Shown one piece after another: positions 1 through 14,390 of a DNA stretch of 41,783 nucleotides (positions are counted from its first letter, which is position 1; each line of letters begins with the position of its first letter). Origin of the DNA: a virus; the IMG/VR virus record IMGVR_UViG_3300033571_028071, positions 1 to 41,783 of that record. The stretch is one strand, 5' to 3'. A program made the position numbers and the translations under genes. The notes under the pieces were generated by a model. The model was given only the letters and a program-made list of their open reading frames with translations. It was not told where the DNA came from and did no database searches.

Positions 1-87
1 ACACACTATAAACTTCTTGGTAGGAGAAGCATCCTTCGTTGGGCTACCACCGCCAACTACACGGCCTGTAATGTGTTTCAATATGGT

Positions 88-210
88 CAAACAGGGCAGG
101 GGATGGACGCATCTTCCGTTTCAAACGATAGTCCGGACTATCTACGCGGTCGAAGTTGGTCTTTAGTCTGCAACCTCACCTCTGGGGCTCACGGTTACTT
201 CCTGTTTGAT
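88..210 (-). ncRNA. Structured RNA segment enclosed by repeats
   Basis: This segment lies between repeat copies at 72-87 and 211-227. The enclosing stem continues beyond the repeats: bases 87-95 pair with 201-209, giving about 24 bp with a small bulge. Inside is a perfect 16-nt palindrome, GATAGTCCGGACTATC, at 127-142. No canonical T-loop, D-arm or anticodon arm was found, so it is not called a tRNA. Strand is inferred from the flanking tRNAs, which are all on the minus strand. A stable small RNA comparable in position to the non-tRNA stable RNAs in the T4 tRNA region is possible. Confidence 0.45.
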
Positions 211-227
211 ACCATATTGAAACACAC

Positions 228-330
228 TCGACCATCTCTTTTTTAGGCATCAGACCGGAGCGACCGGGGCTTGAAATGCTTGGCGATATCCTGTTTCGAA
301 GCAGGGATGGACAGAACGCCGCAGTGTAAA
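228..330 (-). ncRNA. Structured RNA segment between repeats, T-arm-like hairpin
   Basis: This 103-nt spacer between repeats at 211-227 and 331-346 has no credible coding potential. On the minus strand it contains a T-arm-like hairpin, CCTG-CTTCGAAA-CAGG, at 290-305, and a CCGG/CCGG mini-hairpin. The T-loop resemblance is not accompanied by a full cloverleaf that I can fold by eye. It may be a spacer, a degenerate tRNA or a small structured RNA. Confidence 0.3.
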
Positions 331-346
331 TGTGTTTCAATATGGT

Positions 347-465
347 CCGAGACTCGAACTCGGCATGTAAGCGGCTTCGCAATCGAGTAGCGCAATTTCC
401 CTAGCACTGACTAACACAGGTTAATTAAGCCCGCTCTCATCAGTGAAGCCTACACAGCTTCCTGC
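347..465 (-). ncRNA. tRNA-like element whose T-arm abuts the repeat
   Basis: On the minus strand a textbook T-arm, CCGAG-TTCGAGT-CTCGG (347-363), is followed immediately by the repeat ACCATATTGAAACACA. At the other end the complementary repeat ends in ATATGGT directly before GC. If the repeat serves as acceptor stem (ATATGGT/ACCATAT), T-arm and acceptor are spaced as in a tRNA. The interior (about 100 nt) is too long for an ordinary tRNA. It holds a 5-bp hairpin GAAGC/GCTTC, a 6-bp stem CACTGA/TCAGTG (405-410 with 440-445) and other stems, but no convincing anticodon arm. It could be a degraded tRNA, a tRNA with an insertion, or a tRNA-mimicking RNA. Confidence 0.45.
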
Positions 466-588
466 ACCATATTGAAACACACTTGAGGTAACCGTGACAA
501 GCGGGGGCTTTTTACACCTCTCTACCTGCATGCTCACCAGACAGTCACATCTGTTCTGAGAATGCTTTCGATTTAGTATGCTTCAATA

Positions 589-665
589 TGGTGCCCCAGG
601 AGAGACTCGAACTCTCAAAATTTGGCTTCTAAGACCAACACGTATACCAATTCCGTCACCGGGGC
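589..665 (-). tRNA. tRNA-Leu (anticodon UAG)
   Basis: This is a full cloverleaf of 77 nt including encoded CCA. The acceptor is GCCCCGG/CTGGGGC with discriminator A. The anticodon loop CTTAGAA gives UAG, which reads CUA/CUG leucine codons. The T-arm is GAGAG-TTCGAGT-CTCTC. The discriminator and CCA (589-592) are the first four bases of the recurring repeat of the left flank, which continues as TATTGAAGCATAC. The variable region is short for a bacterial leucine tRNA, which is a small oddity. Confidence 0.85.
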
Positions 666-666
666 A

Positions 667-818
667 ATGCAAGCAAATTTTTAAAGTACAATTTAGGACC
701 TTTGTCCTTGCTACAAGCCCCACCGCGCTCTGTAGCGTGGCGCCCAACTGTCCAGCGCCTTTCCCTATTCGCCTCATGCATCAGAATTCACTGACGACTT
801 AGAGAGGTCTTTAGATTC
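667..818 (-). other. 152-nt structured inter-tRNA spacer
   Basis: No ORF is supported here. The minus strand can form several hairpins: AGGAC/GTCCT with a 4-nt loop (about 693-706), GGCGC/GCGCC, and CTACA/TGTAG, followed by an A/T-rich stretch before tRNA-Leu. I see no T-loop signature and do not call a tRNA. It may be a stable small RNA or a processed spacer of the tRNA precursor. Confidence 0.3.
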
Positions 819-913
819 TGGTAGTAGGTAAGGGATTCGAACCCTTCCGTTTCAGCCCATCTGACCGATCTCCAGGGTTTATAAGACCCCGCCGCACACC
901 AGTGCTACCTACC
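819..913 (-). tRNA. Class-II-like tRNA, apparent anticodon UAU (atypical)
   Basis: The gene is 95 nt with encoded CCA. The acceptor is GGTAGGT/ACCTACT (first pair G-U) with discriminator A. The anticodon stem GGGGT/ACCCT carries the loop CTTATAA, giving UAU, and the T-arm is AAGGG-TTCGAAT-CCCTT. There is a long variable arm of about 27 nt with its own TCAG/CTGA hairpin, normally a Leu/Ser/Tyr feature. The D-arm region is only about 13 nt and can fold as GCAC-TGGT-GTGC, which is non-canonical. UAU would read AUA (Ile), which does not fit a class II body, so amino-acid identity is left open. Confidence 0.6.
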
Positions 914-1004
914 GTTCATTCATTCAACAGGTTAATTATATATGCGAAATCTTGGGTTGTAAAGCAGTTTTTGAACTTTTTATTTTTGTTGTTTTCTTGC
1001 AACG
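914..1004 (-). other. A/T-rich inter-tRNA spacer
   Basis: There are ninety-one nucleotides between two tRNA genes. I see no stem-loop, promoter or ORF of note, only T-rich runs on the plus strand (A-rich on the transcribed strand). Confidence 0.4.
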
Positions 1005-1096
1005 TGGTGGAAAGAGTGGGATTCGAACCCACGGACCCGCTTTCGCGAATCGACGGTTTAGCAAACCGCTCCTTTAGGCCTCTCAGGCATCTTTCC
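1005..1096 (-). tRNA. tRNA-Ser (anticodon GCU)
   Basis: A 92-nt class II tRNA with encoded CCA. The acceptor is GGAAAGA/TCTTTCC. The anticodon arm CGGTTTGCTAAACCG gives GCU (AGC/AGU codons). It has a long variable arm, a T-arm GTGGG-TTCGAAT-CCCAC and discriminator A. It starts 5 nt after the end of the neighbouring tRNA-Ser. Confidence 0.95.
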
Positions 1097-1101
1097 GAAA
1101 T

Positions 1102-1193
1102 TGGTGGAAGCGGTGAGATTCGAACTCACGGACCCTTCGCAGGATCGCTAGTTTTCAAGACTAGTGCAATAAACCAGACTCTGCCACACTTCC
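1102..1193 (-). tRNA. tRNA-Ser (anticodon UGA)
   Basis: A 92-nt class II tRNA with encoded CCA. The acceptor is GGAAGTG/CGCTTCC. The anticodon arm CTAGTCTTGAAAACTAG gives UGA (UCA codons). It has a long variable arm, a T-arm GTGAG-TTCGAAT-CTCAC and discriminator A. It is the first tRNA behind the promoter at 1203-1232. Confidence 0.95.
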
Positions 1194-1202
1194 AATATAT
1201 GC

Positions 1203-1232
1203 ATCATACAGATACACAGGGGGGCGTGTCAA
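1203..1232 (-). promoter_or_regulatory. Sigma70-type promoter of the tRNA cluster
   Basis: The minus strand has -35 TTGACA (1227-1232), an 18-bp spacer and -10 TATGAT (1203-1208). The predicted start lies at or just before the first tRNA-Ser. The -35 hexamer lies in the loop of the G/C hairpin at 1220-1238. Confidence 0.7.
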
Positions 1233-1238
1233 GCCCCC
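1220..1238 (-). terminator. GC hairpin downstream of hsp20, no U-tract
   Basis: The stem GGGGGC/GCCCCC (6 bp) has the loop TTGACAC, 9 nt after the hsp20 stop codon. No U-run follows, so it may only attenuate transcription or protect the mRNA 3' end. The loop contains the -35 box of the tRNA promoter. Confidence 0.4.
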
Positions 1239-1246
1239 GTTAACTT

Positions 1247-1738
1247 TTACAGATTAGTGTCTTCTGTTAAAAGTTGCTTGGCTGGCTTCTCGCCCTTCTC
1301 TTTGACTTCAATTTTCTTCGGCTTTTTATGCTCAGGAATAATTTGATCAAGGAAGATACGAAGCATACCGTTAATCATCTCTGCACCTTTGACTTCAATT
1401 TGGTCATTTACAAGGAAGGTGCGAGTGAAGCTACGGTCGGCGATGCCTTTGTGAATCCAACTGGTCAGAGCAGTATCATTGTCTTCTGAGGAATTACCCT
1501 TTACGATAAGTTTACCCTCTGCAAGCTCAACATCAATTTCAGATTTACTGAAACCGGCGACAGCGATTTCAATAACATAATGATCTTCTTTCACTTTCTT
1601 GATATTGAATGGAGGATAGTTGGGAATCCCCTTAGTGAGTTCATCATGAAGTTTTGCCATGCGATTGTATTGGTCATCGAACCCGACGAACAATTTTTGA
1701 AAATCTTTTGGCATTAGATTTGATAGCATATAACTCAT
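1247..1738 (-). CDS. hsp20: Hsp20/alpha-crystallin small heat shock protein
   Basis: A 163-residue small heat shock protein, an ATP-independent chaperone that binds unfolding proteins. The alpha-crystallin domain covers roughly residues 45-135, with beta-strand motifs such as EGKLIVKG and a late NGMLRIFL strand. A C-terminal IEV tripeptide resembles the I-x-I oligomerisation motif. I chose the ATG at 1738 because AAGGAG stands 7-8 nt upstream; the reading frame extends further upstream but without signal. Hsp20 genes are common in marine T4-like phages. The gene is last in the replication cluster, before the tRNAs, and has its own structured leader. Confidence 0.93.
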   Translation of the reverse strand: MSYMLSNLMPKDFQKLFVGFDDQYNRMAKLHDELTKGIPNYPPFNIKKVKEDHYVIEIAVAGFSKSEIDVELAEGKLIVKGNSSEDNDTALTSWIHKGIADRSFTRTFLVNDQIEVKGAEMINGMLRIFLDQIIPEHKKPKKIEVKEKGEKPAKQLLTEDTNL

Positions 1739-1850
1739 TGTTTTCTCCTTTTCAGCGAGTTTAAAAGTCCTACCCCGAAGGCATAGGTGGCAGATTTGAC
1801 TAGGGTGCCAGCCTAGTTCCCCATCCCGAGGATATATTATATATGCAAGA
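1739..1850 (-). promoter_or_regulatory. Structured leader and possible promoter of hsp20
   Basis: The 112-nt leader holds a TATAAT-like -10 (1836-1841, within TATATAATATA) with no good -35. Two hairpins follow: ACTAGG/CCTAGT, and CCTA...TAGG closed by a TTCG tetraloop. The AAAAGGAGA ribosome site follows. A temperature- or structure-dependent control of the heat-shock gene is possible but unproven. Confidence 0.4.
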
Positions 1851-2060
1851 TCACTGCAAAACTTGTGCTTCTTGTGAACTAATTTCCTCACCCTCTGCAG
1901 GTGTTTCTTCTGGTGCAGGCATTGCCGCAATTTGTGGTTGTGCTTGTCCCATGATCTGATTGATCAGCCCAGCAGAAACCTCATAGGGAGTTTTTGCAAC
2001 GCATGATAGAACAAAGTTTAGTTGTTCAACTGTCAAAGAAATATTAACTTGATTGCTCAT
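1851..2060 (-). CDS. Small conserved phage protein, 69 aa
   Basis: This is a 69-residue protein with an ATG preceded by AGGAGAATCCT. The N-terminal half (NISLTVEQLNFVLSC) resembles short proteins of marine T4-like phages that begin with a similar beta-strand/helix pattern. The C-terminal third is rich in Ala, Pro, Glu and Gln and probably disordered. It lies between regA and hsp20. No function is assigned. Confidence 0.75.
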   Translation of the reverse strand: MSNQVNISLTVEQLNFVLSCVAKTPYEVSAGLINQIMGQAQPQIAAMPAPEETPAEGEEISSQEAQVLQ

Positions 2061-2069
2061 AGGATTCTC

Positions 2070-2501
2070 CTAGTTTGACTTACGTGGTTTTTTGCCCAAA
2101 TTATACTTTGTTTGAATGTTCCAATCACCTTTTTCTTTAAAGGATAAAACTTTAATTTGTGATAGAGGTGCTTGGTCATCAAACAATGGAGCGTTAATTA
2201 TAGAGATTAAGCCCCAATCTTGCAATAGCTTTGCAATAGTATTTCTTCTTTGTAGATCATTATCAGTTATATCTGCAAACTTGCCATCAAGAGCAAAAAG
2301 TTCCTTGAAATGAACTAGAAAGTATCGTCCTTGTTTGTGCAGAATGTGACATGATTGATATAAAGTTTTGTCTTTCTTCGAAGCTACGCCAATTCTTGAC
2401 AGCGTTTCTTTTACTTTGAGGAAGTCATCCGCTTCCTTCAAAGCGATCTCAAGAGGCACATATCCTTCAAGATCAATGTTAAATGAAATATTCTCAGCCA
2501 T
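2070..2501 (-). CDS. regA: RegA translational repressor
   Basis: At 143 residues it is slightly longer than T4 RegA (122). RegA binds the initiation regions of phage early mRNAs, including those for clamp-loader proteins, and represses their translation. The identification rests on the sequence pattern (SRIGVASKKDKTLYQSCHIL, RRNTIAKLLQDWGLI) and on the classical order 45-44-62-regA. Its ATG overlaps the end of gene 62 by 8 nt, which suggests translational coupling. The C-terminus is basic (GKKPRKSN). Confidence 0.92.
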   Translation of the reverse strand: MAENISFNIDLEGYVPLEIALKEADDFLKVKETLSRIGVASKKDKTLYQSCHILHKQGRYFLVHFKELFALDGKFADITDNDLQRRNTIAKLLQDWGLISIINAPLFDDQAPLSQIKVLSFKEKGDWNIQTKYNLGKKPRKSN

Positions 2502-2904
2502 TTTTCAATCCACCTTTTTTTAATTTTTGTTTTAATGAATCAATTTGCTGACGCGATAGTATAGAGACAACGTCTTGTGCCTTTACAGTATTGTAACCAT
2601 AATACTCTTTAACTATATCAATCGCTTCTAGCTTTTCTCCCTTTAACCATTTGTTGTATCTTTTCTTCGCAGGTATGATACTACGAAGAAAATCAAACTG
2701 CATTCTTTTGTCAAGGTGAGGTCTGGAATTCATTTCATTCGCTTGAATCACCGTATCCGCGCCAAAACTTAACGATTTATTTATAATAAAAGGATTGTAC
2801 TGGCGCTCTGACCAATCATCAACGATTAGATCCTTTTTGTTTTCTGCGATTGCATTTACAAAATCAAACGGAGAGATAGAAGGAATTTTGTATTCTTCTG
2901 TCAT
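2494..2904 (-). CDS. 62: Clamp loader small subunit gp62
   Basis: This 136-residue protein lies between genes 44 and regA. In T4, one gp62 joins four gp44 subunits to load the gp45 clamp at primer-template junctions. This family has few motifs; the call rests on size, position and resemblance to marine phage gp62 (for example NAIAENKKDLIVDD, RQYNPFIINKSLSF). Its start overlaps the gene 44 stop by 4 nt. It is shorter than T4 gp62 (187 aa), as is usual in cyanophage-type relatives. Confidence 0.88.
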   Translation of the reverse strand: MTEEYKIPSISPFDFVNAIAENKKDLIVDDWSERQYNPFIINKSLSFGADTVIQANEMNSRPHLDKRMQFDFLRSIIPAKKRYNKWLKGEKLEAIDIVKEYYGYNTVKAQDVVSILSRQQIDSLKQKLKKGGLKNG

Positions 2905-3845
2905 TTAAATTTCACCGTAGCCATAATCTCCGTCAAACAAGCTACAAGATTAATTTCATGGTCGGCAACAAAAGCTGATTTGTATTGGTAATCTGCAAGA
3001 ATCAAAACCAACTCAGGAACTTGATTGACAAGCGGAACTAGATCATCATACAACTTACGAAACATACCTTGCGGGTCGTTATCGATGTTATTGACTACCC
3101 ATTGGCGCATCAGTTTCCAATCTTTTGCCTTCAATGATGCAATCAATTCTTGTGTGTTAGCTTCTCCAACCTTTGCAAGAATACCTTCATCAATCGTACC
3201 TGATGCTGCATACCTTTGTAGTTCATTGATGATTCGACGATAGTCAGGAAAATACTTCATCAGAAGTGCAGCGATTACCTTCTCATCAAATCCAATCCCC
3301 TCATTCTCCAGAATGAATTGAATTCGTTTCATAAACTTAGCAGCAATCTTTGGCTTTTCTGCTTTCGTATATTTGAATTCAATCACCGCACACCGAGAAT
3401 GCAAAGGTGAAATGATTCGATTTTTATAGTTACAAGTGAAGATGAATCGACAATTCTTTGAAAATTCTTCGATGAATCCTCGCAATGCTGGCTGAGTCGA
3501 ATTAGGATTCAGATAATCTGCTTCGTCAAGAATAATGACTTTTGTCTTGCCTGTGAAGGAAACTGTTGATGCAAACTGTTTGATCTTCGTGCGAAGAACA
3601 TCGATACCAGATTCTTCTGAACCATTAATGAGCAGATAATCAGTCCCAAGTTCCTCACACAAAGCTCGAGCAACAGTTGTCTTTCCCATGCCTGCTCCGC
3701 CACACAAAAGCATGTTTTGAATTTCACCTTTATCGATGAATTCTTGGAAAGTTGCTTTTTGTTCTGTGGGTAGAATACAATCCTCAAGGTTATGAGGACG
3801 ATACTTCTCTACCCACAGAAACTCACCTGCTTTAACTTCATTCAT
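2901..3845 (-). CDS. 44: Clamp loader ATPase gp44
   Basis: The protein has 314 residues and is an AAA+ ATPase of the sliding clamp loader. It shows Walker A GGAGMGKT (49-56), Walker B VIILDEAD (103-110) and the SRC motif (150-152) that supplies the arginine finger. The N-terminal WVEKYRP is typical of RFC/gp44. It is separated from gene 45 by an inserted methyltransferase gene, unlike the usual adjacent arrangement. Confidence 0.97.
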   Translation of the reverse strand: MNEVKAGEFLWVEKYRPHNLEDCILPTEQKATFQEFIDKGEIQNMLLCGGAGMGKTTVARALCEELGTDYLLINGSEESGIDVLRTKIKQFASTVSFTGKTKVIILDEADYLNPNSTQPALRGFIEEFSKNCRFIFTCNYKNRIISPLHSRCAVIEFKYTKAEKPKIAAKFMKRIQFILENEGIGFDEKVIAALLMKYFPDYRRIINELQRYAASGTIDEGILAKVGEANTQELIASLKAKDWKLMRQWVVNNIDNDPQGMFRKLYDDLVPLVNQVPELVLILADYQYKSAFVADHEINLVACLTEIMATVKFK

Positions 3846-4526: not shown

Positions 4527-5179
4527 ATTGTTGACCCAGGTTCCATTGCAATCAAATAAGACAACTCAGAAGTCACAGCTTTGAATTGACAAAACTGCTT
4601 TTTTGAGAGGACGCAATCATAATCCAATGGCATCAACTTAAAGTTTTCAGATGAGATGTTACACTCAAAGTCAACATCAGAGGTACCGATAGATTTGTTG
4701 AAGTTGTTTGCTGATGCATTCTTCTTGTCACCAATCTTCATTACAACATTTCCATTCTTGGAGATGATAGAAATAGTTGGCGCAGCAAGAACACCTGCTG
4801 TTTTAGTGATTGATTGAATGTCTTTTGCTGTCAAACGAAAACTAAAAACAGATTCAACTTCAACACTTTTGTTAGGTGCTGCAACAATCAAGGAAGGTTC
4901 ACAATAGAAGTATTCAAAGGTGCCCACATCGTTTGTGATCTTCATTGACTTTTCTCCAAAGTCAATCTCTTGATCTTCCGCAAAGGTAAGAAGCTGAAGA
5001 AGCGAGTTCAGATCATAAATCGCAACCTCGCGAGGAAAAGTTTCTGCAACAGTCGTTTTTGCAAAGATCGACTTAGGTGCATTAATTGTCGCGAGTGTGT
5101 TACCTGTTCGAAGGAGTATGTTCGTATTGATCGTTGAGAAATTCTTCAGAATATTTATAGTCTCTTGGCTGATTTTCAT
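4523..5179 (-). CDS. 45: Sliding clamp gp45
   Basis: The 218-residue DNA polymerase processivity factor is close to T4 gp45 in its opening (MKxSxxTxxxLKNFxTIN) and in the VAIYDLNSLLQLL segment. As a trimer it encircles DNA, tethers the polymerase and, in T4, is the mobile enhancer of late transcription acting with gp33/gp55. The ATG at 5179 fits the T4 N-terminus and has an upstream AGGAGAACC, but this places 80 nt of overlap with the preceding DUF3310-like ORF in another frame. Confidence 0.95.
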   Translation of the reverse strand: MKISQETINILKNFSTINTNILLRTGNTLATINAPKSIFAKTTVAETFPREVAIYDLNSLLQLLTFAEDQEIDFGEKSMKITNDVGTFEYFYCEPSLIVAAPNKSVEVESVFSFRLTAKDIQSITKTAGVLAAPTISIISKNGNVVMKIGDKKNASANNFNKSIGTSDVDFECNISSENFKLMPLDYDCVLSKKQFCQFKAVTSELSYLIAMEPGSTI

Positions 5180-10597: not shown

Positions 10598-11310
10598 TTT
10601 TGCTCTCCAGAAAACAATTGAAGTATTTGTTGTCTATCGTTTTTAATCCAATGAAACATCATTTTTAATTCATTCGGTAAACTATTAAACAACTGAGCCA
10701 TTTCTATTTCAGCTTGTTGTTTATTATAATTGGTTCCAGGAGGATGATCAATGGTATGGAAATAATCTCGTATGACAGGACGCCTCATTAGATAACTAAT
10801 TCCTGGGAATATAATGTCCCAACCCCATCCCATTTTATAAGGAGACATATCAATCTTTGTCTGCTTAAAAATATCCAGAATATCTTTATGAATAAACCAG
10901 CACGTGCAATCTGGACATGCAACCAATTTCATAGATTTGTCTCTAAGCTGAACACCCTGTATATCTGTTCGTGAGGAATCATACCACGTATAGTCAACGT
11001 TTGGTGCGTAGATTCCCCACTTGTAAGTTTCATAAGAGCTTTCAGCATCCTTCAAAAGGTTTTGCCAGTCGCTGTAAGAAGCATCACCTTGAATGTGAAA
11101 AAGAACATCTGCATCAAAAAGTTCTAGAGCCTTTATAAATTGATCTGTGAAGTATGCACTCTCCCCTACATTTACCCACCCCTCATCATTGTGCTCTTCA
11201 TCTGAATTTATGATTACAGGATCATAGCCGATTGCAGACAATTGCGAAATCTTTTCTTTCGTCTTTTCATACTGTCCTCGCCAGTTGAAAATAAAAATTT
11301 GTATTTTCAT
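10594..11310 (-). CDS. Putative glycosyltransferase, 238 aa
   Basis: The protein has 238 residues and starts MKIQIFIFNW. It has a Rossmann-like alternation, then FHIQGDASYSDW, which could be a GT-A nucleotide/metal site, and a conserved-looking PYKMGWGWDIIFP block. This resembles GT2-type proteins of phage glycan clusters. No exact family is claimed. The start is three bases after the acyltransferase stop, with an A-rich leader rather than a clear ribosome site. Confidence 0.55.
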   Translation of the reverse strand: MKIQIFIFNWRGQYEKTKEKISQLSAIGYDPVIINSDEEHNDEGWVNVGESAYFTDQFIKALELFDADVLFHIQGDASYSDWQNLLKDAESSYETYKWGIYAPNVDYTWYDSSRTDIQGVQLRDKSMKLVACPDCTCWFIHKDILDIFKQTKIDMSPYKMGWGWDIIFPGISYLMRRPVIRDYFHTIDHPPGTNYNKQQAEIEMAQLFNSLPNELKMMFHWIKNDRQQILQLFSGEQK

Positions 11311-11312
11311 TT

Positions 11313-11921
11313 TTATTTTTTACCTCGAGGTGCAGCAGGATCACCGTACAATGTATCTGCAACCTCTATACTTTTTCTTGCAACTGCACCCGCAGACAAT
11401 TTTGTGCCTGTGGGAAAGACAACCTTAGGCACAGCAATCGCACTTGTGCCAAAGAAACATCGTGACCCGATTCGGCAATATCCCATAGTTCCTGCATAGG
11501 GGCTAAAGGTGCAGTAATCACCAATTATGTTGTCATGAGTAACAGAACATGAGAGGTTCAACGTAACGAAGTCACCTAATACACAATCACCCGCTACAGT
11601 AGAATGTGGGCAAATAACACACCCCTTTCCGATTTTAGAAAATTTAGAAACATGGCAACTGCTATGAATGAATGTACCCCATCGATCTTCGTTCTTTTCG
11701 ACAATTTGTACTTTGTACTTAATTTCACCAACAGCTAGGATAAACTGTGCATCAGGAAACTCACCGGGCTGAATAGATTTCAGCACAGGAAACGCTTGAT
11801 TATACTCGTCATTATTAAATGAATCATCTGAAACTACAGCGACAATTTCATGGCCATCATCTAAAATGTATGAAATTACTTCCTTCGCAAACCCCCCAGC
11901 ACCAAAAACAACATATTTCAT
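11313..11921 (-). CDS. NeuD/PglD-type sugar O/N-acyltransferase
   Basis: The protein has 202 residues. An N-terminal nucleotide-sugar-binding Rossmann part (YVVFGAGGFAKEV) is followed by hexapeptide repeats of a left-handed beta helix (residues about 90-190). A His in SVTHDN fits the catalytic position of PglD/NeuD/PerB-type acetyltransferases. The ATG at 11921 is used because AAGGGG stands 5 nt before it. It probably acetylates the amino sugar made by the RfbB/DegT pair. Confidence 0.85.
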   Translation of the reverse strand: MKYVVFGAGGFAKEVISYILDDGHEIVAVVSDDSFNNDEYNQAFPVLKSIQPGEFPDAQFILAVGEIKYKVQIVEKNEDRWGTFIHSSCHVSKFSKIGKGCVICPHSTVAGDCVLGDFVTLNLSCSVTHDNIIGDYCTFSPYAGTMGYCRIGSRCFFGTSAIAVPKVVFPTGTKLSAGAVARKSIEVADTLYGDPAAPRGKK

Positions 11922-11930
11922 AATCACCCC

Positions 11931-12827
11931 TTAAAAGTAAATAATTTCGTCTTCACGTTTCTTTATTTGACGAAAAACAATTGCATCAAACCAATTTAGA
12001 AAGTTATCAAGATTTACATAGTATGGGGGAATGTTATGTACAAATTTTGGCTGTGAAAGGTGACTATTGTAAAGATCATCATTCTCATCAAGCTTTTGAA
12101 TATGTTCAATTGCTTTATTGAAGTTAGGGAAGCGATGCATATTTACAAATGAATAACTATTAAAATCCGCTGCAATTGTAGGACTTCCCCAATAGATTGG
12201 AATAGTTTGTGCATAAAATGCATGAAGTATTTTTTCCGTTACATATCCCGGATGTGAATAACTTTCAAAACAAATATTAAATTTTCTTGTTGAAAGGAAA
12301 TCGATCTTACCTGTTTCACCCTCAAGGTTAGCTGAAATATTATTAAATAATTTTCCTCCACTGTCTACTTGTTTGTATTGTGATAGCGCGTGAAAGAAAT
12401 CATTCCTCATTTTACAATTGGGATTGCTTACAACAAAACTTGCAAATGCCGTTTTTTCTTTTACAATACTGGTATTAAAAATGTATTCATAATTGTAATT
12501 TGTCTTATGAATATGTTCTAGTGCCCACATGTAAACAACAAACAAAGGCAATCGATAATGCCATGCATGTAAGTTGTGATCAAAGGAAATCGCATAATCA
12601 CAATCATACTTTTCAGGACGCTTGTTCTCGCCCGTATAAAAAATCTTAACTACGTCTTTACGAGAAAACTTTCTGTTCTCATGCCCAAAATTATCATCAC
12701 CAAAAATGAGATAATCAGGATTATTATGATCAATCTCAATATCATACCTTCTCAACAAAACATTATAAAAGAAGGTTGCGATATGTTCATGCGTATCGGC
12801 GAATCCCAGTTTTAGTTTTGGTTTCAT
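11931..12827 (-). CDS. GT10 family fucosyltransferase-like enzyme
   Basis: The protein has 298 residues. It has the GT10 landmarks: an early FYTGENKRP (63-71), then VVSNPNCKMR with VDSGGKL, and the family signature FNICFES...GYVTEKI...IPIYWG (183-214) that binds GDP-fucose. GT10 enzymes are alpha-1,3/1,4-fucosyltransferases. It lies just downstream of gmd, fcl/colC and colD-type genes that would supply a GDP-6-deoxyhexose, so the donor is probably GDP-L-fucose or GDP-L-colitose. AGGTGATTA precedes the ATG. Confidence 0.88.
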   Translation of the reverse strand: MKPKLKLGFADTHEHIATFFYNVLLRRYDIEIDHNNPDYLIFGDDNFGHENRKFSRKDVVKIFYTGENKRPEKYDCDYAISFDHNLHAWHYRLPLFVVYMWALEHIHKTNYNYEYIFNTSIVKEKTAFASFVVSNPNCKMRNDFFHALSQYKQVDSGGKLFNNISANLEGETGKIDFLSTRKFNICFESYSHPGYVTEKILHAFYAQTIPIYWGSPTIAADFNSYSFVNMHRFPNFNKAIEHIQKLDENDDLYNSHLSQPKFVHNIPPYYVNLDNFLNWFDAIVFRQIKKREDEIIYF

Positions 12828-12880: not shown

Positions 12881-13228
12881 TCACTCGACTCCCTTATACA
12901 GTTTCACTGAATCCTCAGCTAGTGACTTGCCTCTTATGATTGCATCATCAACCATACGATTTATTGCTTGAACAAACTTGGGTCTTTTTTGTTTGAAACA
13001 AATATCAACCTTTCGTTTAATGTCTGCCAGTTCCTCATCACTTGTGGCTGATTGTGCTGCATCTTCAAGCATCCATGTACGGATATGGAGGATTACAAGT
13101 TTTTCAATCACCTCGCCGAGATTGTCTGTGGGCACATATTCTTCAATTTCAGGCATTTGTCTTTTCATTAGAACATCTTCAACTGTTCGAATTACAATGC
13201 CTTCCAATTCTTCAGCAAATATCGTCAT
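12881..13228 (-). CDS. Helical protein of the glycan operon (DUF4254-like pattern)
   Basis: The protein has 115 residues and is predicted all-helical. The block LVILHIRTWMLEDAAQ...IKRKVD...KRPKFVQAIN recalls DUF4254 proteins found in polysaccharide clusters (L-x-x-x-N-x-x-x-W-x-x-E-D, KR-x-I-D), but the match is loose. The ATG at 13228 has GGAGG six bases upstream and overlaps the colD-type gene by 17 nt. Function unknown. Confidence 0.65.
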   Translation of the reverse strand: MTIFAEELEGIVIRTVEDVLMKRQMPEIEEYVPTDNLGEVIEKLVILHIRTWMLEDAAQSATSDEELADIKRKVDICFKQKRPKFVQAINRMVDDAIIRGKSLAEDSVKLYKGVE

Positions 13229-14390
13229 ATACATCCTCCAACGCTTGCTCAAGAGTGTCCATGTGCTTTGTACCTACAAAGTGATTGTTTCCAATATACA
13301 CACCGTGTGAATGTAAAATTTCTGCGTTTGTTTTATTTTTGTTTGTTTCAATCTTGTATCCCCTGTTAACCAAAAAGGGTTGAGTAAGAAGATTGCCGCT
13401 CACAATCGGGCGATACTCAATATTATAATGATTAAAACACTCTTTCATGATTCTTGCAATTTTTTCACTTTTGCATACGAAAGGAAAGCAAAAACTGCTA
13501 TTACCATCTTCATACGCATGAGGATAAAAAAGTGTAGGATATTGATTAATGATTCTAACATATTGTTCGTAGTTATGTCTACGCTGTTCAATCATCGAAT
13601 CTAATCTTTTAAGTTGTGACGATCCAAGAACTGCACAAATTTCATGGTTTCTAAAATTGTAACCATCTGTCATAAACAAAAAAGATGGTTCAATGTGTGA
13701 ATATTTCTCGGCGTATTCTTTTTGTTTTGTCGATTCTCGAGCCATTCCATGACTGCGCTTCATACGCATCAAATCATATAGATCAGTATTGTTAGTTGAT
13801 ACCATACCCCCCTCGATGGTAGACATATGATGCCCAAAATAAAAACTAAAAGTCGATCCTAAACTCTTTGAACCATACTTATCACCTTCAACATCTTTAC
13901 ATCCATGCGATTCACAAATGTCATCGATAATAAGAGCATTAGGGAATAGTTTTTGTAGCTTATGATTGTCCGCAGGAAATCCCAATAAGTGTGTTACAAA
14001 AATTACTTTAATGTCTTTATGCTTTTTAGCAATTTGTTTTGCATCATCAAGATCAAAACTATAATTTTGTAAGTTAATGTCGCAAAAGATTGGCTGTAGT
14101 CCCAATTGAAAAACGGGAGAAACATTTGTAACCCAGGTACATGCAGGAACAAGAACTTTGTCGCCATCCTTCAAATTATACAATTCTTTTACAGCAGAAA
14201 GTAAAAGGGTGTTCGCTGTGCTTCCACTACTTACAAACAGCGAATGCTTTACACCTAACCAGTTACTCCATTCTTGTTCAAATTTCTTGACCTTTTCGCC
14301 ATACGTAAATCTTTTGGTGCTCATTACAAATGCAGCCATCTTAAATCTATCACCCCAGGTAATAGTTTCACCCATCAAAGGCCATTTCAT
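13212..14390 (-). CDS. ColD-type DegT family sugar 3-dehydratase
   Basis: This 392-residue PLP-binding DegT-family protein has histidine where aminotransferases have the Schiff-base lysine (SFYFGHHMSTIEGG, H187-H188). This replacement marks the ColD/RfbH dehydratases, which remove the C3 hydroxyl instead of transferring an amino group. In ColD, which acts on GDP-4-keto-6-deoxy-D-mannose, the catalytic residue is His188. Located in an operon with gmd and an fcl/colC-like gene, it fits the GDP-L-colitose route. It overlaps the upstream gene by 4 nt. Confidence 0.82.
   Translation of the reverse strand: MKWPLMGETITWGDRFKMAAFVMSTKRFTYGEKVKKFEQEWSNWLGVKHSLFVSSGSTANTLLLSAVKELYNLKDGDKVLVPACTWVTNVSPVFQLGLQPIFCDINLQNYSFDLDDAKQIAKKHKDIKVIFVTHLLGFPADNHKLQKLFPNALIIDDICESHGCKDVEGDKYGSKSLGSTFSFYFGHHMSTIEGGMVSTNNTDLYDLMRMKRSHGMARESTKQKEYAEKYSHIEPSFLFMTDGYNFRNHEICAVLGSSQLKRLDSMIEQRRHNYEQYVRIINQYPTLFYPHAYEDGNSSFCFPFVCKSEKIARIMKECFNHYNIEYRPIVSGNLLTQPFLVNRGYKIETNKNKTNAEILHSHGVYIGNNHFVGTKHMDTLEQALEDVYDDIC

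Follow-up and report, generated by a model that had tools for sequence, protein, structure and literature searches.

The first 592 bases of a 41,783-base IMG/VR virus record (the window, by which we mean that whole stretch of DNA) hold short repeats in strictly alternating orientation next to a phage tRNA. What does such an array encode, and is it peculiar to this record? Compared across many loci, it appears to be a modular RNA gene of a type not described before: between tRNA genes of many uncultured phages, a nearly constant stem starts at the CCA end of a tRNA and encloses a small structured RNA that is swapped between phages.

The repeat array in the window

The original prediction of five alternating copies of a 17-mer was borne out in both the positions and the strict alternation. 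The copies lie at 71–87(−), 211–227(+), 330–346(−), 466–482(+) and 576–592(−), with 1, 0, 1, 0 and 2 mismatches to the quoted sequence, respectively; one further match with ≤3 mismatches, at 13341–13357, is chance-like. As many as six matches were reached in none of 100 dinucleotide shuffles (mean 0.17, largest 2), confirming that the repeats are real and far above chance; their recurrence elsewhere (see below) shows that they are no local oddity. The cut-off sixth copy is also real: it consists of AGTGTGT at 7–1(−), and in two homologous loci (L023 and L040) the insert continues directly into AGTGTGTTTCAATATGGT. The quoted repeat itself required amendment. The copies were found, but the conserved unit is 18 nt rather than 17, and the arms are not exact complements, failing at position 17, where a T in the 5′ arm usually faces a G in the 3′ arm. 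The ≈590 nt had been described as free of protein genes, and the only listed open reading frame inside 1–575 has 68 aa and a TTG start (frames of 60 aa or more were listed, leaving out those that run off the window ends).

The hairpins are read on the minus strand of the window, which is the tRNA strand. On this strand, tRNA-Leu(UAG) at 589–665 (ARAGORN; Rfam RF00005, 60.4 bits at 592–665) ends in ...GGGGC-ACCA, in which ACCA (592–589) is the discriminator base plus CCA. The same four bases open the first repeat; thus, the array begins at the CCA end of the tRNA-Leu, and the non-coding segments with their inverted-repeat borders do adjoin a phage tRNA. Hairpin 1 comprises the 5′ arm ACCATATTGAAGCATACT (575–592), an insert of 91 nt (484–574) and the 3′ arm AGTGTGTTTCAATATGGT (466–483). 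It is followed by a non-tRNA segment, or slot, of 119 nt (347–465), with a T-arm-like stem-loop at its end and ACCA directly thereafter. Hairpin 2 consists of ACCATATTGAAACACATT (329–346), an insert of 100 nt (229–328) and AGTGTGTTTCAATATGGT (211–228), and the slot of 123 nt that follows (88–210) has a terminal helix, CAAACAGG/CCTGTTTG, and then ACCA. These four arms were delimited by repeat match and pairing comparison. Hairpin 3 has the 5′ arm ACCATATTGAAACACATT (70–87, by repeat match), an insert of 62 nt (8–69) and a 3′ arm (1–7, from the homologues) cut by the contig end, and was left out of insert and slot clustering.

The first two inserts belong to families C4 and C5, each with nine members in nine sequences; their alifold z-scores of −0.93 and −0.98, respectively, are not significant alone. 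By eye, the third insert resembles those of L023 and L040 in family C13 (z = −2.42). The first slot belongs to slot family S8 (six members, three distinct), and the second is related by eye to family S7, with AGTAGG/CCTACT in L024 taking the place of CAAACAGG/CCTGTTTG. Neither ARAGORN nor Rfam called a tRNA or tmRNA in 1–588. ARAGORN found four tRNAs in the window, all on the minus strand: Leu(UAG) at 589–665, Ile(UAU) at 819–913, Ser(GCU) and Ser(UGA). The 95-nt tRNA-Ile has the tRNA-Sec model as its best Rfam match (35.5 bits, under the cut-off), and ARAGORN calls named tRNA-Ile, of 90–101 nt, recur in other arrays.

The protein encoded at 2901–3845 resembles the T4 clamp loader gp44. Its nearest isolate among the matches listed was Methylophilales phage Melnitz (61%), followed there by phages whose records name a sliding clamp loader. 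Among the best 80 of at least 600 relatives fetched with this protein, 16 contained tRNAs and two the hairpin. The relative at 98% identity, L304, spans 4.1 kb, contains no tRNAs and is hence uninformative on the hairpin. L305, whose gp44-like protein is 80% identical, is the nearest relative whose fetched sequence includes tRNAs; it lacks the repeats, and its tRNA-Leu(UAG) is followed 2 nt later by tRNA-Cys. The repeats are thus missing from L305 but not from all close relatives, the outcome that the original prediction had named as refuting it, and since only some gp44 relatives carry the hairpin, it is gained or lost among related phages. L305 also has a non-coding region at 4560–4860(+) that by eye resembles slot family S12, without a hairpin and behind a promoter-like sequence.

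Spread, anchoring and pairing of the stem

On the tRNA strand, the hairpin has the form ACCATATTGAAACACATT–insert–AGTGTGTTTCAATATGGT (consensus arms). At least 119 IMG/VR virus stretches contain the exact 16-mer ACCATATTGAAACACA, and hairpins were present in 112 of the 120 sources that these stretches make up together with the window. Two degenerate hairpin patterns each gave at least 120 stretches, many of which overlap the 16-mer set. The final sample of 298 sequences (2.73 million bases) consisted of the window plus 297 fetched IMG/VR stretches, whose data sets bear many different numbers, and yielded 584 hairpins in 292 sequences and 4426 tRNAs, with a tRNA present in 291 of the 298. Because arm matches were used to fetch nearly all of them, the conservation of the arms is partly a product of the search.

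BLAST of the joined arms against cultured phages gave no match (E up to 10, with an estimated power barely enough for an 18-nt match), nor did window hairpin 2, the L036 hairpin or the slot at 347–465, each searched singly; window 1–1250 had matches in its tRNA part among the matches listed (40 of 477 records). In bacterial and archaeal genomes (257 billion bases), one strict hairpin pattern with 30–60 free bases had no hit. The array had been said to share its format with no known phage RNA family, and this held in Rfam 15: tRNA aside, no family matched window 1–591 (search of 1–3000, E up to 5), and none covered the hairpins at 14 hairpin loci at gathering score. A group I intron (RF00028, 53.4 bits) lies in the tRNA array region of L029, at 13185–13378(−).

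The stem is fixed to tRNA ends. The first four bases of the hairpin are often the discriminator base and CCA of the upstream tRNA, and 289 of the 584 hairpins start exactly at the ACCA of a called tRNA; for the other 295, no called tRNA ends there. A tRNA starts within 30 nt downstream in 219 cases; in 98 of these, the final three bases of the 3′ arm are also the first three of the tRNA, which is tRNA-Met in 56 of the 98.

Compensatory changes in the stems, which the original prediction had named as support, are present, and the wobble pairs are one-sided. At stem position 8, T-A (338), A-T (202), G-C (25) and C-G (4) were all found among the 584 hairpins, and position 17 is U·G in 491 of them. 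G·U outnumbers A·C by 949 to 238 over all stem positions, and by 369 to 30 when positions 1, 9 and 17 are left out. Position 9 breaks the wobble rule (198 A·C vs. 3 G·U). That exception aside, no such lean would arise from pairing in DNA or on the opposite strand, and the pattern of substitutions thus shows RNA-level pairing of the stem on the tRNA strand.

The architecture extends beyond the searched sequence, since stems of different sequence are also anchored at CCA. Such long stems were found at 64 of 3636 further tRNA 3′ flanks, compared to two in shuffles; an example is ACCATTTGTTTAGTGTTATCA..CGATAACACTAAACAAATGGT after tRNA-Glu. By eye, 11 of the 64 follow tRNA-Lys(CUU) and pair with the 3′ arm of a known hairpin past the following tRNA, which leaves at most 53 independent cases. 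Another type of CCA-anchored stem has TTTGTTT or GTGTTATC in the 5′ arm and inserts of 80–112 nt; its 12 cases, mostly after tRNA-Glu(UUC), include L041, L156, L163, L222 and L284.

Each repeat copy could in principle pair with either neighbor, and a switch between two sets of enclosed loops had been proposed; this is only partly supported. The comparison among loci favors the pairing that encloses the insert, whereas the predicted fold of the window pairs around the slots. Among 166 consecutive hairpin pairs ≤300 nt apart, pairing on the insert side was better in 92, equal in 57 and worse in 17, with a mean of 17.38 of 18 paired positions around the insert vs. 16.77 around the slot. In the 75 cases in which the variable bases differ, the means were 3.52 and 2.68 of 4, respectively. 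In addition, 137 of the 298 sequences have a single hairpin, with no alternative arm partner within the fetched stretch. In the minimum-energy fold of the window, the arms join around the slots at 347–465 and 88–210 (18 and 17 pairs, respectively) and the outermost arms pair together (z = −5.04 vs. 20 shuffles); alternative pairing around the slots is therefore energetically possible there, according to the model. We take the insert-enclosing pairing, as favored by the comparison, to be the selected one.

The hairpins are unevenly distributed among tRNAs. They follow 125 of 185 tRNA-Lys(UUU), 44 of 209 Glu(UUC), 31 of 170 Gln(UUG) and 26 of 153 Leu(UAG), are rare after Lys(CUU) (1/73), Met (2/347) and Pro(UGG) (1/198), and follow none of 184 Ser(GCU), 176 Asp, 152 His and 152 Trp. 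The trend was the same when identical tRNA sequences were merged (82/134 for Lys(UUU), 1/299 for Met). These fractions come from sequences chosen for holding the hairpin and do not describe phages at large. The Lys(UUU), Glu(UUC) and Gln(UUG) tRNAs have a modified wobble uridine in common, and tRNA-Lys(UUU) is the target of PrrC.

Where no called tRNA ends at the hairpin, the preceding sequence was treated as a slot, giving 271 segments in 120 clusters; by eye, some of these clusters are tRNAs missed by the exact-end rule (e.g., S19 and S29). A short stem-loop ends 0–1 nt before NCCA in 21 of 109 slot representatives, and 7 nt before it, the spacing of the tRNA T-arm, in 17; the remaining offsets up to 27 mostly had counts of 1–7. 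The window slots fit this picture, one having a T-arm-like stem-loop directly before ACCA and the other an acceptor-like helix. An alignment test of the slot RNAs is a hint only, with some z-scores inflated by gapped alignments and two undefined.

Diversity, structure and exchange of the inserts

The 473 distinct inserts, of 23–161 nt, fell into 273 single-linkage families, of which 161 were seen once and 111 in two or more sequences (Chao1 = 568 for this sample). Alignments gave signs of structure: 28 of the 29 families with at least four usable members had a negative alifold z-score (mean −2.29, 12 below −2), and compensatory pairs in these 29 families numbered 72, vs. 16.5 in column-shuffled alignments. 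In family C0, two-sided changes occur in 18 of 40 consensus pairs, the stem included; C2, C10 and C18 are further families with compensatory changes, and C12, C23 and C24 gave no signal in the alignment test. These comparisons show that many inserts have conserved structures.

Single-sequence folding was too weak to serve as proof of structure, which is why the alignment tests were used instead. Over 266 family representatives, it barely exceeded shuffles (mean z = −0.42) and was no better on the sense than on the antisense strand (−0.36, p = 0.41). Other tRNA spacers, of 40–140 nt and without the hairpin, folded more strongly (mean z = −1.47; 260 of 500 sampled), so other structures probably exist in these spacers. 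The inserts have a GC content of 0.486, compared to 0.367 in other tRNA spacers and 0.403 overall. The T-loop motif GTTCRA occurs in 41 of the 273 families (shuffle mean 7.6, largest 16). Mimicry of ribosomal RNA was considered and rejected: no insert matched E. coli rrnB below E = 0.01, and matches below E = 1 numbered 110, vs. 96 in shuffles.

The inserts move between contexts. Members of the same family in different sequences formed 820 pairs, in 393 of which the inserts were ≥90% identical. Both flanks were unrelated in 227 of these (55 families), both alike in 109, and one alike in 57, where unrelated means that both 60-nt flanks had <70% identity (background median 0.51). The converse, restricted to hairpins after the same called tRNA, was found in 86 pairs (42 families) with both flanks alike and inserts of different families. 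After tRNA-Gln(UUG), for example, L163, L167 and L194 have identical flanks and hold inserts of families C10, C43 and C20, respectively; identical flanks with swapped inserts were also found in L036 and L080 after tRNA-Thr and in L130 and L172 after tRNA-Lys. Among families with at least two tRNA-anchored members, 34 of 58 are preceded by two or more different tRNAs.

The arms themselves are divided between the two partners. Of 17 swaps with near-identical flanks, 13 left the 3′ arm unchanged, and 11 left the 5′ arm unchanged or one base off. Where the insert was the same but the flanks unrelated (138 pairs), the arms differed by means of 2.12 (5′) and 1.28 (3′) bases, compared to 3.52 and 2.05 for random pairs. 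Thus, the arms travel in part with the flank and in part with the insert. Taken together, the swaps show that inserts and flanks have been exchanged independently, with breaks that by this comparison fall at or inside the arms. That the hairpin architecture and the exchange of inserts jointly hold we consider highly probable.

A search of 25 large contigs, hand-picked at >100 kb each from the larger number of that size among the 298 and possibly incomplete, found neither the tyrosine recombinase domain Phage_integrase (PF00589; control search 14/14) nor the Y1 transposase (Y1_Tnp, PF01797; control 5/14). Homologous recombination would therefore be the simplest means of exchange. The RNase III domain PF14622 was likewise found in none of the 25, so that a host enzyme would act if RNase III were needed. 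TROVE (PF05731) was found in none of the 25 (control 1/14), and a link to Ro and Y RNAs was rejected: the one scanned representative of a family that had been assigned to TROVE by eye proved to be DUF2828/DUF7788. This family is present in 25 of the 298 sequences near tRNA arrays (e.g., L021 at 10840–12258), in four loci (L021, L108, L263 and L287) 24–26 nt from a hairpin, and DUF7788 was detected in four of the 25 large contigs. RNaseH_like (PF04308) occurs in 14 of the 25, within ≈5.5 kb of a hairpin arm, which may reflect synteny. The T4 RNA ligase family profile had no match in its control search.

Interpretation and relation to known systems

The reading that we prefer, to which we give an even chance as a whole, is that the hairpin serves phage tRNA arrays as an RNA scaffold. 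Its stem of ≈18 bp starts where a tRNA, or a non-tRNA slot RNA in its place, ends in CCA; in part of the cases the stem ends inside the first bases of the next tRNA, and it encloses an exchangeable structured insert. The array would be transcribed as a single precursor, and the hairpin, cut out by 3′ processing right after CCA and by RNase P at the tRNA that follows, would be released as a stable small RNA of some 60–200 nt. The prospects that hairpins are released as separate RNAs are slightly better than even. When phages co-infect, homologous recombination between their conserved arms would swap the inserts, which may be fast-changing trans-acting RNAs directed against host factors, most plausibly defenses. 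This anti-defense role, for which insert diversity and the adjoining tRNA isotypes are the sole basis, is possible but on the doubtful side.

The hairpin might alternatively act in cis, with the ACCA tail paired to UGGU so as to delay or gate 3′ maturation of the tRNA; the insert would then be an aptamer sensor, and its binding would open the stem to set free tRNAs that are under attack by defenses. Stems that start at CCA and mostly end in TGGT, even where the rest of the stem sequence differs, are consistent with such gating, as is the strong bias toward Lys(UUU), Glu(UUC), Gln(UUG) and Leu(UAG). Defenses of a suitable kind exist: Cas12a3 cuts the CCA tails of tRNAs (PMC12851939, in excerpt), and phage tRNAs have been proposed to evade anticodon nucleases (PMC10264068, in excerpt). 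However, 295 of the 584 hairpins have no called tRNA that ends exactly at their CCA, even if the exact-end rule missed a tRNA at some of them, and 273 insert families are many for sensors of a single event; we consider gating in cis unlikely.

It is similarly improbable that the stem is only punctuation, a processing or insulating signal between tRNAs with filler inside. The position of the hairpin between tRNA ends would suit such a signal, and the inserts do fold weakly as single sequences, below other tRNA spacers. Filler does not account for the compensatory changes within inserts, for their raised GC content or for near-identical inserts between unrelated flanks.

A mobile DNA element, in which the arms would be terminal inverted repeats or a folded recombination site (attC-like or REP-like) and the RNA incidental, is quite improbable. 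It would explain the same element at many sites, its sharp borders and its position at the tRNA 3′ end, and the partial co-travel of arms and inserts in the 138 pairs points the same way. In contrast, a double-stranded terminal repeat leaves the asymmetry of the arms, with the usual U·G at position 17 and the G·U bias, unexplained; neither Phage_integrase nor Y1_Tnp was found in the 25 large contigs; only two minus-strand match lines were found between inserts; and the unchanged 3′ arms in 13 of the 17 near-identical-flank swaps indicate that it is often the insert that moves, rather than the whole element. Finally, a chance repeat or an assembly artefact of one contig, for which we found no supporting point, is refuted by the 292 hairpin-bearing sequences from many data sets and is virtually impossible.

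For the scaffold that we prefer, several known systems offer partial likenesses. The attC site of integrons is an imperfect hairpin with a variable terminal loop that follows each cassette and allows modular exchange; in our hairpins, which are also imperfect and modular, the exchanged part is the loop itself, and the tyrosine recombinase of integron cassette arrays was found in none of the 25 large contigs. REP/BIME and Correia/NEMIS elements are dispersed intergenic palindromes that form RNA hairpins; those described here differ in their variable structured insert, their location at tRNA CCA ends and the lack of a Y1 transposase in the same contigs. The tRNA cluster of T4 yields the processed, stable non-tRNA RNAs C and D (species 1 and 2), which, compared by description only, are like the slot RNAs in being non-tRNA RNAs within a phage tRNA cluster; we know of no conserved alternating inverted repeats or exchangeable inserts there. 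GOLLD and ROOL RNAs often lie near tRNAs, and their Rfam models matched neither the window nor the 14 loci. They share with the hairpins that they are structured RNAs of phages or prophages, but are single large RNAs (PMC12286853, in excerpt).

The nearest printed idea that we found is that of theta ribozymes, HDV-like elements of gut phages that lie beside phage tRNAs and are proposed to function in 3′ trailer processing (PMC10879173, in excerpt). Like the hairpins, they are RNA elements that adjoin phage tRNAs; unlike them, they are self-cleaving, and 4.5% of their associated tRNAs encode CCA (PMC10879173, in excerpt), whereas the hairpins combine an encoded CCA and a constant stem with hundreds of inserts. 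No HDV-like or other ribozyme matched window 1–3000 (E up to 5) or the 14 loci (gathering score), in Rfam models that may not include theta. Among the matches listed from a mostly open-access literature, titles and the opening parts of abstracts described no such tRNA-anchored hairpins. Because no family tested or known to us matches a constant tRNA-anchored stem with a swappable structured insert, we regard this combination as new.

In its most far-reaching form, the proposal would be a modular RNA arsenal: a single CCA-fixed stem on tRNAs attacked by defenses would carry hundreds of small RNAs traded by recombination, each sensing or blocking a host defense factor, while opening and closing of the stem would set tRNA release. 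This is a long shot, but if true, it would amount to a cassette system built from RNA genes, complete with scaffold, swap site and open-ended repertoire. Short of that, one stem type adds 273 families of candidate small-RNA inserts to phage biology, with no Rfam counterpart in the window and the 14 loci searched, and provides a case of modular exchange of RNA parts with visible borders, comparable to the exchange of protein-coding cassettes. The tie to Lys(UUU), Glu(UUC), Gln(UUG) and Leu(UAG) also brings the question of the tRNA arrays of large phages into testable form: do these tRNAs and the small RNAs between them make up one anti-defense unit?
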